From assembly GCF_000021485.1 (NCBI RefSeq), contig NC_011761.1, positions 1,456,001 through 1,520,000 of the forward strand: DNA of 64,000 nt. Direction: 5' to 3'. The stretch is from Acidithiobacillus ferrooxidans ATCC 23270 (lineage in GTDB: Bacteria > Pseudomonadota > Gammaproteobacteria > Acidithiobacillales > Acidithiobacillaceae). The notes beneath the pieces were generated by a model. It had not been told where the DNA came from, did no database searches, and worked only from the letters and a program-made list of their open reading frames with translations. How positions within the stretch are numbered: the stretch's first letter is position 1; each line of letters starts with the position of its first letter. This document shows, one piece after another, positions 56,016-59,168 of the stretch. Both the position numbers and the translations under genes were made by a program.

Positions 56016-56400
56016 TCATCTGTTTACGCACCCAAAGGGGTCATCCCTGATTTGCATAGGGCCCCAAGCATGGACGACGGCATAGTTCCAGGTAGGTACC
56101 ACCTTGCCGGTTTCCACCTTGGTCGCGTACCCCGAGGGGCTGATATCGTGTTGCGGCCCCTGGAAGATGGCCAACACCTCGCTGTTCGAGGGCACTTCCC
56201 GCCAGAGCGGATTAGCGCGGGCCACATGTCCCTGCAGCACCGGTTGCGGTCCTTCACCATGCACACGGGGTACAAGGGAATACGATTTGCCTCCAGACCA
56301 TTGCCGCCCATACTGACCAGTGTTGCGAGGGGATAACGCTGAATCAGTGTCCGCAGGATTTCCGGGCGGTTTTCTGCAAATGGCTCAGGACAATACCAGT
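56016..56400 (-). pseudogene. FMN-binding transcriptional regulator (PaiB-like), frameshifted and truncated
   Basis: One frame encodes CPEPFAENRPEILRTLIQRY and PLATLVSMGGNGLEANRIPL, the PaiB N-terminus, without a good start codon. The next frame continues with QGHVARANPLWREVPSNSEV, then GKVVPTWNYAVVHAWG to a stop at 56016. The change of frame falls near 56265. The last third of PaiB is missing. Three lesions mean the gene is dead. Confidence 0.8.
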
Positions 56401-56409
56401 TCGGCCTCC

Positions 56410-56931
56410 TGTCATTCCATGTTCGGCGCTTCAGACTCACTTGCGCACAAAACCGCAGCGGGCGGACAGGCGTCAATGGGATTGGCCACCCAGCCGCTGT
56501 TTCGGGAGGCCTTTCGCGCGAGACGGGCACTGGTGCCGGCGGACTGGTATTTCGAGTGGCCCTTTGTCCCCGAAGACCCATCTGAAAAGCATCCCATGCT
56601 CATCCGGGCGCAAGACCATCGTATTCTGGCGCTGGCCGGGATATGGGACCAGCACACCACCGCAGAAGGTCAGACCGAGGAGACCTTTGCCATCATTACC
56701 GTCCCCGCCCAGCCTGCCTTGCAGCACATCCACCAACGTATGCCTTTGGTGCTGGATCGCAGCCATTGGCCGCTCTGGTGGCATCCTCATGCGCGGCGGA
56801 CTCATCTGGAACCCTGTTTTCAGCCTGCAGACTTTTCCTGGGAAAGCTTTCCGGTCTCTCCGCAGGTGAACAGCACCCGTTACGATGCACCAGAAGTGAT
56901 TTTGCCTTGGGACGGGACGATCCCGGACTGA
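56410..56931 (+). pseudogene. SRAP-family (YedK/HMCES) DNA-protein crosslink protein, N-terminus missing
   Basis: The frame encodes PLFREAFRARRALVPADWYF, then ILALAGIWDQHT, then HQRMPLVLDRSHWPLWW, the middle and end of an SRAP protein. The family's catalytic Cys2 and first 70-80 residues (MCGRF...) are absent, and the PaiB remnant begins there. The loss of the catalytic Cys makes this a remnant. Confidence 0.75.
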
Positions 56932-56988
56932 CGGAATGGCCAGAGAATGCCGACGATGGGAGGACACTTGCGTGCCGTTGACTAGGTG

Positions 56989-57004
56989 CTGTATAAATAT
57001 ATAG
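56989..57004 (+). promoter_or_regulatory. LexA-like SOS box before the umuDC locus
   Basis: CTGTATAAATATATAG resembles the gammaproteobacterial LexA box CTGT-N8-ACAG; the right arm ends ATAG in place of ACAG. It lies directly before a small membrane-protein frame and 240 bases before umuD. Confidence 0.55.
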
Positions 57005-57028
57005 TACATGGCTACAGAGCGCATTCAG

Positions 57029-57271
57029 ATGCAGACAAAGAACGCGAAACCCATCCAGAAGTTCCAATGGCTGCTGGTCCTGATTCTGGCGCCTTTGTGG
57101 GCCGGCTGGCTGGGCCATCAATCTCCACGCTATGCGGCCGGGAATGGTGCCATATTTCAAAACGCCCGCCAGGTCACCTGGACGCGTGCCTCGAGCCCCA
57201 GGACGACAACGCCCGCAGCGCAACAAAAAGGGGATGGCCGCCAGGATGGGAAGCCGCGCCATGCACTGTGA
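57029..57271 (+). CDS. Small membrane protein in the SOS locus
   Basis: An 80-residue frame with one membrane segment (WLLVLILAPLWAGWLG) and a basic tail. Its end overlaps the umuD start. I chose the second ATG (57029) because the first (57008) lies only four bases after the LexA-like box. I do not recognise it. The position behind an SOS box suggests an SOS-induced membrane protein, as with small cell-division inhibitors in other bacteria; this is an inference. Confidence 0.45.
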   Translation: MQTKNAKPIQKFQWLLVLILAPLWAGWLGHQSPRYAAGNGAIFQNARQVTWTRASSPRTTTPAAQQKGDGRQDGKPRHAL

Positions 57272-57740
57272 TCCGATTCCCATACCGCAGGGTATATTCG
57301 GCGCCAACGGCATGGTGGCCACATCGCCCCAGGCAGTGGGCGGCTGGCATCGTGGCGGTACGCTACCGTTCATGGTGTCGCGGATTGCCGCGGGTTTTCC
57401 GTCTCCTGCCGATGGCTATGTCGAACAACAGATCGATCTGAATACCCATCTGATCCAGCACAGGGAAGCGACTTTCATCCTGCGGGTTTCCGGCTGGTCC
57501 ATGCGGGACGTGGGGATATTCGATGGCGACGAGATCCTTGTGGACCGGGCCATTACCCCGGTGGATGGCAAAATCGTGGTGGCGGCCATCAATGGCGATC
57601 TCACCGTCAAACGCTTGCGCCGGATCGGCAGTGCCGTACATCTGGTGGCGGAAAATCCCGAGTTTCCCACGATCATCCTCAAAGAAGGGGAAGAACTCTG
57701 CATCTGGGGTGTCGTGACCCGGGTGCTGCATCGCGTCTGA
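57246..57740 (+). CDS. umuD: UmuD-like SOS peptidase subunit
   Basis: A 164-residue S24-family protein. The self-cleavage site is Ala-Gly in [17 protein letters not shown], the nucleophile Ser is in [14 protein letters not shown], and the Lys is in NGDLTVKRL. After cleavage UmuD' joins UmuC to form a translesion polymerase. The N-terminus is uncertain (ATG at 57246 or 57261). It is followed by umuC after 7 bases. Confidence 0.88.
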
Positions 57741-57747
57741 GGCCCGC

Positions 57748-59031
57748 ATGGCCATTGCCCTGGTAGACGCCAATAATTTTTATGTTTCCTGCGAACGGGT
57801 ATTTCGCCCGGATCTGGAAGGGCGGCCCGTGGTGGTGCTCTCCAATAATGATGGCTGTGTCGTAGCGCGCTCGGCGGAAGTGAAGGCCTTGGGCGTCGCC
57901 ATGGGCACACCGTGGTTTCAGTTGCAAAAACTGGCCAGGCGGGAAGGAATCATCGCCTTGTCGAGCAATTACAGCCTCTATGCCGATATGAGCAATCGCA
58001 TGATGGGGATTCTTTCGACCTTCAGTCCCATTCAGGAAGTCTACAGTATCGACGAATGCTTTCTGGATCTGAGCGGCTTTGCGCAGGATCGGCTATCCCA
58101 ATTGGGGCAAGCGGCCCGGCAGAGAGTCCGGCAATGGGTGGGATTGCCGGTCGGGGTAGGCATTGCAGCGACCAAGACGCTCGCCAAACTCGCCAACCAT
58201 GTCGCCAAGAAGAGGCCGGAATATGCGGGAGTCTGCGTGTGGGACGATCTGCCTGAAGGGGATCAGCGGCATCTCTTGCAACAATTGCCCGTTTCCGAAG
58301 TCTGGGGGGTGGGTCGCCAGTGGACCACACGATTGCAGGAGACGGGCATTCAGACGGTCTGGGATCTCCGGCAAGCGGACCCCGCGCTGATGCGCAAGCG
58401 CTTCAGCATCCTCATGGAACGGAGCATACGGGAACTGCGCGGGGAACCTTGCATCGCCATGGTGGAAATCCCGCCGCCCCGGCAGGAGATTCAATCCTCG
58501 CGTTCCTTCGGCCGCCCGGTGACCAGCGCGGAGGAATTGGGCGAAGCGATCAGCCTGTATACCGTAAGGGCCGTCTATAAACTGCGTCGTCAGGGTTCAG
58601 TGGCCGGTGCCCTGCGAGTGTTTATCCACACCAGCCCCTTTCAGGCCCGTCTACCGTCATACCATGCCACGAGAACCGTCGCCCTGAATCGTCCCAGTCA
58701 GGATACCCGGGTGTTCCTGCAGGCCGGCCGTATCGCACTGGCGGATATGTATCGGTCGGGATTTGCCTATGCCAAGGCGGGGGTGCATCTCCTGGAGATC
58801 ACTTCGGCGGATGCCTTGCAGGCCGACCTTTTCCTGTCGGCCGAAGAGGAGGCGCGTGCCCATCGACTAATGACCACGCTGGACCGGGTGAATGCGCGTT
58901 TTGGCACCGGCACCCTGCAGCCGGGCGTGGCCGGGCTGCAGGAACCGCGTGGATGGGCCATGAAACGCGGCAACAAGTCTCCTGCCTACACGACACGATG
59001 GGCGGAACTGGCCAGAGCAACACTGGAGTAA
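57748..59031 (+). CDS. umuC: UmuC-like Y-family translesion DNA polymerase
   Basis: A 427-residue Y-family polymerase V catalytic subunit. The acidic residues of the active site are in [19 protein letters not shown] and SIDECFLDL, and [19 protein letters not shown] is the conserved palm/fingers segment. The DUF4113-like C-terminal end RWAEL is present. With UmuD' it bypasses lesions. The SOS-box context upstream fits induction by DNA damage. Confidence 0.95.
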
Positions 59032-59168
59032 CCGGGATCAACCCCTATGGGATCAAAGACAACGCGCGGGGAGTGGCGGGTCCGGGAAGCGGCGTTTGCG
59101 CCATGAAAGAGCCTCGGCGTAGACTGGTGTCTTCCCTCTTTCCCTGTTCCCTACCACAGGATATCGGC

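Follow-up and report, generated by a model that had tools for sequence, protein, structure and literature searches.

The window analysed here is a stretch of 64,000 nucleotides of Acidithiobacillus ferrooxidans ATCC 23270, taken from a single-contig genome of 2,982,397 bases (positions 1456001–1520000). It carries a small gene for a predicted membrane protein between a LexA-type box and umuDC, with the following features.

56320–56931, plus strand: SRAP (SOS response-associated peptidase) gene, upstream; PF02586 and comparison with the A. caldus protein
56978–57005, plus strand: sigma-70-like promoter TTGACT-16-TATAGT; consensus scan, 10 of 12 positions
56987–57006, no strand assigned: very probable LexA operator TGCTGTATAAATATATAGTA; matrix from lexA-gene boxes, kindred boxes before lexA
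57008–57028, plus strand: upstream in-frame ATG and six codons; ATG absent from three near relatives
57029–57271, plus strand: group A small membrane protein gene, 80 aa, stop TGA at 57269–57271; alignment A1, dN/dS and the A. caldus RefSeq gene
57062–57112, plus strand: predicted membrane helix, codons 12–28, with A21xxxA25 and W27-L28; hydropathy and AlphaFold
57107–57133, plus strand: signature W-L-G-H-Q-x-x-x-Y, codons 27–35, at and just past the helix end; conservation in 24 copies
57261–57740, plus strand: umuD, with possible starts at ATG 57261 or ATG 57312; NF007621, 153.6 bits (cut-off 110), and Peptidase_S24, model searches run from 57264
57748–59031, plus strand: umuC; NF002955, 454.7 bits (cut-off 431)

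A sequence-only reading of this DNA had proposed a LexA-like box ahead of the small frame, and the box is indeed present. Its core, CTGTATAAATATATAG (56989–57004, plus strand), lies in a site that scores 30.05, against 13.2 for the next-best place in the window, with a matrix built only from eight boxes preceding lexA genes; since a pattern of similar type had served to find most of these lexA boxes, the matrix is not an entirely independent test. The score is above that of the genome's own lexA box (25.9; TACTGTATAAAAATATAGCC, located via an E. coli-like consensus), and no position reached it in 25 simulated 64-kb first-order Markov sequences (maximum 12.6). By the bare pattern CTGT-N8-ACAG with one mismatch the box is not special, with 13 matches in the window against 17.2 expected. 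A 20-base box pattern, searched with a tolerance of three mismatches, had 68 strand matches (palindromic places may count twice, once on each strand) in 26 of 29 genomes of the Acidithiobacillaceae, and a reversed control pattern gave three. Boxes of this type front lexA in 16 genomes of the family that were read (ten, five and the window's own), the identity of lexA being judged by eye except in the window's genome. Four places in that genome lie within two mismatches of CTGTATAAAAATACAG, and three of them precede the group B paralogue described below, lexA and the window gene. A scan of 56900–57400 found one promoter-like site, TTGACT-16-TATAGT, where shuffles average 0.1; it is a consensus match only, and its −10 element is covered by the box. 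The site at 56987–57006 is thus very probably a LexA operator, and LexA control of the window gene is strongly supported by its sequence context. A perfect CTGT-N8-ACAG at 59144–59159, behind umuC, does not rank among the eight best lexA-matrix scores of the window and looks fortuitous.

The single-pass membrane frame that had been described after the box was found at 57008–57271 (87 aa, with a predicted hydrophobic segment). Its first codons (57008–57028) are probably not translated: three near relatives carry GCG or CCG at the position of ATG 57008, which itself coincides roughly with the transcription start expected from TTGACT-16-TATAGT. The conserved start is ATG 57029, which gives 80 aa and has a usable equivalent in all 24 intact copies of the protein family (one as GTG), and the RefSeq copy of A. 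caldus is a 246-nt gene, matching the length from a start of the 57029 type.

Comparison of the copies indicates that the small frame is a real gene under purifying selection. Nei–Gojobori dN/dS between the window copy and four relatives is 0.43–0.57. Fisher tests were made for five pairs (three of group A and two of group B), and synonymous differences exceed non-synonymous ones (pS > pN) for the window copy and A. caldus (p = 0.0034), for another group A pair (p = 0.0013) and for two group B pairs (p = 1.1e-5 and 0.0052); the window copy compared with A. ferruginosus was not significant (p = 0.061). Other reading frames are interrupted by stops in most of the 24 copies, the exceptions being one other forward frame without stops in nine of the 14 group B copies and one on the reverse strand in five of the 10 in group A; by construction, no copy has a stop within the named frame. 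A chance open frame between the box and umuD would be compatible with a dN/dS only moderately below 1 and with the A. ferruginosus value, but is extremely improbable, as the frame is kept in seven genomes despite varying length and has homologues at other loci, including a paralogue in the same genome.

The protein family consists of two groups. Group A (alignment A1), to which the window gene belongs, has 10 intact copies in seven of the 29 Acidithiobacillaceae genomes, and seven of these copies precede umuDC. The three away from an intact umuDC differ in their surroundings: in G016 SRAP, the box and the group A gene stand together, and the 8 kb read there contain neither a UmuD nor a UmuC match; the chromosomal copy of G017 is accompanied by the box alone over the 6 kb read; and G015 has SRAP, the group A gene and a partial umuD match. 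A further copy (G010, L186) is broken and was left out of the 24. Group B (alignment A2) is a stand-alone paralogue behind the same type of box; in the window's genome it encodes a protein of 74 aa whose helix ends in the same way, and is fronted by the highest-scoring box among those scored in that genome. By protein profile group B occurs in 15 of the 29 genomes, all in the window's genus (17 genomes), and is intact in 14; the G012 gene, split over two frames, and a weak second match in G010 (E = 0.0089) were left out of the 24. The same 14 intact copies were recovered by the box and by the profile, which adds no intact one. All 24 intact members are preceded by the box, with the start codon 20–24 nt downstream of it. 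Group B is absent from three genera of the Acidithiobacillaceae, in two of which group A matches are weak (E = 0.01–0.07), and a checkpoint formed by these proteins would therefore be lineage-specific. Among weak group A matches with E between 0.009 and 0.1, L100, L104 and L107 turned out to be group B; L090 was read and is not a member.

The family signature, [small]xxx[small]xWLGH[QP]xxxY (also written [GA]xxx[GAT]xWLGH[QP]xxxY), lies at the end of the predicted helix. W27, L28, G29 and Y35 are invariant in all 24 members, H30 and Q31 are present in at least 90%, and small residues occupy positions 21 and 25. The motif WLG[HRN]Q misses the WLGHP copies of G010 and G016, which were recovered by locus reading and profile scan. 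The profiles of groups A and B align over the helix and the collar that follows it (hhalign E = 1.4e-6, probability 90.5), and shared descent is probable but not proven because the alignment spans 29 columns only and is not trusted beyond that stretch.

Searches for known relatives of the 24 members with Pfam, NCBIfam and PHROGs gave no convincing match; the best, phrog_4568 (E = 0.0057) and phrog_3774 (E = 0.0065), were each seen in six of the 24, and COX4 (E = 0.016) in four, and none of these was accepted. PADLOC with three of the proteins and the PDB with the joint profile gave no match, none of the 24 members matched a SulA model at E ≤ 1, and one scan of viral contigs returned 27 pattern matches, none of which is a relative. 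Phage records searched for group A yielded none; among plasmids, group A gave the copy on the A. caldus megaplasmid plus four weak matches in copper ATPases, and group B gave none. The joint profile matched two genomes among 369 of the class and two among 398 of the phylum; in each case one was the window's own. The match in G054 resembles the membrane anchor of a thioredoxin-like protein and was rejected on reading, as was that in G666, which resembles a DjlA-type protein with a helix that happens to read GLWLGHQVDKY; the NCBIfam DjlA model gives E = 0.17 against one family member. Absence outside the Acidithiobacillaceae is not exhaustive, because at most 14 or 15 candidates were scored per genome in these joint-profile searches. 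Among the matches listed in the open-licence literature on Acidithiobacillus LexA/SOS, mitomycin, umuD/umuC and division inhibitors, none describes these genes in its title or the opening of its abstract; one of them (PMC6370655) covers mitomycin C treatment of A. ferrooxidans in the context of conjugation genes. The family thus appears to comprise lineage-specific, LexA-controlled small membrane proteins that were previously undescribed and are ordinary in kind.

Conservation of the small frame in related umuDC loci, on which the sequence-only reading depended, holds among close relatives and fails beyond them. Nineteen umuC loci were scanned in the Acidithiobacillaceae; a group A gene is present at seven of the eight with a complete UmuC at least 75% identical (the sole exception being the second G003 locus, L057), at none of the other 11 and at none of 48 loci elsewhere. 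The latter set comprises L004–L053 minus L047 and L050 (matching G012 and G011 contigs); five of its loci (L023, L043, L046, L049 and L053) either showed no umuD or gave little or nothing to read ahead of it. The umuC counts exclude incomplete UmuC matches at the contig ends of G011 and G012 (as well as L047 and L050), two short fragments in G016 and G021 and the weaker matches of DinB type. A LexA-type box also occurs at the umuD genes of G008 (L179) and G023 (L066), which lack a group A gene. The A. caldus SRAP–group A–umuDC cassette lies on the megaplasmid mpAca1.1 and is flanked on both sides by transposase genes, the downstream one ∼3.4 kb off. The A. caldus SRAP protein is matched over all or almost all of its length in G003, G007, G016 and the two G015 copies. 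The window's SRAP aligns with that of A. caldus from residue 79 onward only and so is without the MCGR start, which in SRAP proteins normally bears the catalytic cysteine.

The overlap of the small frame with umuD, also put forward from the sequence, stands in part. The small frame ends 11 nt into umuD as read from ATG 57261, and all seven umuDC-linked copies keep such an overlap, of 8 or 11 nt, with the umuD ATG; the second possible umuD start (ATG 57312 in the window) is likewise an ATG or TTG in all seven and is the one from which RefSeq annotates umuD in A. caldus, so that translational overlap is not certain. The conserved overlap would suit a pol V accessory, either a membrane tether or timer of UmuDC or a leader frame whose translation is coupled to, and so sets, that of umuD, and UmuC is described as membrane-held in E. 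coli (PMC6375631). This role is nonetheless improbable, since intact group A copies occur without an intact umuDC nearby, group B lies elsewhere and selection acts at the protein level. By its copies without umuDC and the paralogue elsewhere, group A is, as far as these loci indicate, not tied to umuDC.

The proteins of the family are 67–88 aa long, with a variable tail of 43–51 residues after the helix. The window protein has a single hydrophobic segment near the N-terminus, with a hydropathy maximum at residues 12–30, and AlphaFold predicts one helix at residues 9–28 with low confidence (mean pLDDT 55). The helix is only moderately hydrophobic, with a KD19 of 1.37 in the window copy and of 0.70 in that of G003. 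In the window protein the charge on the N-side is +3, which suggests an N-in topology; in group B the net charge before the segment picked as the helix is only 0 to +1, and the topology of that group is therefore weakly supported. We infer one helix with an N-in topology, although the segment, which was judged by eye, could still be a cleavable signal peptide. The small size, the LexA-type operator and the one weakly hydrophobic helix would also be expected of a membrane-acting SOS toxin of the TisB/DinQ type, which would lower the membrane potential and slow growth without being a specific division inhibitor. TisB/DinQ-type peptides are ∼20–30 aa long, however, and are exceeded by proteins of 67–88 aa with a 43–51-residue tail; the invariant W-L-G and Y, moreover, suggest a protein partner, and we consider such a toxin distinctly unlikely.

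Two genes recur beside group B.

L189:2447–2710, minus strand (G000:C1:790946–791209): gene 3′ of group B, a conserved neighbour
L134:1564–2115, minus strand: DNA-3-methyladenine glycosylase; PF03352, tested in L134 only

The first, which encodes 86–88 aa (VELDHKAREAIEDIINRREG...), follows group B on the same strand in 13 of 14 loci compared, has no convincing match in Pfam, PADLOC or PHROGs and might be co-induced with group B. The glycosylase gene is upstream of group B on the same strand in six of the 14. Reverse-transcriptase-like fragments, of group II intron type by eye, lie just 5′ of group B at G000:C1:791500–792200 (L114) in the window's genome. An SOS role in the envelope unrelated to division, for example in import, secretion or energy metabolism while repair proceeds at low pH, would fit a family found in these searches in one family of acidophiles only, and a group B gene adjoining a glycosylase gene or a small uncharacterized gene; as no neighbour or domain found indicates such a pathway, we regard this role as unlikely.

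SulA, the checkpoint of E. coli, shares SOS control with ImuA, and PF03846 (SulA) matches occur in 16 of the 29 Acidithiobacillaceae genomes. In the window's genome the sole match is ImuA (NF033429, 189.7 bits, cut-off 150), and SulA was rejected there as the checkpoint. Five more matches (L191–L195) were read as ImuA by eye, eight in G020–G027 were rejected solely from their position ∼0.8 kb behind the lexA box, and the remaining two lie in G003 and G007; a divergent SulA could be missed. The window's genome has a single LexA by PF01726, which is above the TIGR00498 cut-off, and its gene is followed by imuA, imuB and dnaE2 (assigned by order and Pfam). Gram-positive inhibitors of the SosA/YneA/DivS/ChiZ group usually adjoin lexA, whereas the group A and B genes lie away from lexA in this genome.

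Several known division inhibitors resemble the predicted architecture of groups A and B. SosA of Staphylococcus aureus is an SOS-induced division inhibitor of 77 aa with a helix at 10–30 and a conserved stretch just outside the membrane (PMC6851548). Its single helix, short N-terminus, outside tail conserved just past the membrane and LexA control are all predicted for the present proteins; this is a likeness of architecture and not a sequence match, and sosA is divergent from lexA, whereas the group A and B genes lie at umuDC or alone, in a Gram-negative acidophile. Caulobacter SidA (29 aa) and DidA (71 aa), which target FtsW/FtsN, are, as is predicted for groups A and B, small single-helix inner-membrane proteins of a Gram-negative bacterium and give a pair of inhibitors per cell, but DidA is outside LexA control and the likeness to groups A and B is by description (PMC4211646). 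YneA of Bacillus subtilis is also SOS-induced, with one helix, which binds FtsW, and an outside part, in which the LysM domain is needed (PMC13396833); unlike YneA and ChiZ, the proteins of groups A and B have no LysM match in Pfam. SulA, in contrast to these predicted membrane proteins, is soluble and binds FtsZ (PMC6051672). The same paper, from 2018, gives small size and membrane binding as the sole unifying feature of membrane SOS inhibitors; being without a common sequence, such inhibitors must be found lineage by lineage.

Because of the SosA-like architecture, the precedent of SidA, DidA and YneA and the lack of a true SulA among the matches seen, we propose, with a probability of roughly one half, that groups A and B are SOS-induced membrane-bound division inhibitors that form the SOS checkpoint of this lineage; division arrest and its target are suggested purely by analogy. 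LexA, by covering the −10 element, would keep the gene repressed, and its cleavage after DNA damage would free transcription, so that the protein would be made together with pol V (UmuDC). The short protein would insert in the inner membrane with its N-terminus in the cytoplasm and ∼50 residues outside. The small-xxx-small face of the helix and the W-L-G-H-Q-x-x-x-Y collar could then bind a membrane-bound part of the machinery that builds the septal wall, FtsW, FtsI and FtsN being candidate targets, and the outcome would be delayed division. A more specific version, which we put forward tentatively as the less probable, is that a two-branch SOS checkpoint family stands in for SulA in Acidithiobacillus, with group B as a fixed chromosomal brake and group A travelling with the SRAP–umuDC cassette, both acting on the septal wall synthase in the membrane; if so, a mobile mutagenesis operon would bring its own division brake. 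The family has a checkable signature and a clean operator, which make it a new candidate throughout the lineage; its two copies can be compared, and no true SulA was seen in the organism. If they do inhibit division, these proteins would reveal what restrains it under DNA damage in the iron- and sulfur-oxidizing acidophiles of biomining, and would put the proposal that such inhibitors commonly target FtsW (PMC13396833) to a further test.

Few strong LexA targets were seen in the window's genome, because its own recA locus (L213, G000:C1:845694) has no LexA-type box (best matrix score −1.7), and recA is probably not under LexA control there; weaker boxes in the genome may have been missed. The strong targets are four: lexA with the mutagenesis genes, group B, group A with umuDC and an ERF-family recombination gene. 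Two of the four thus begin with a member of the group A/B family. The box before the ERF-family gene (G000:C1:1114168–1114187, L211:2169–2188) is of the LexA type, as if an element in this genome exploited the SOS switch of its host.
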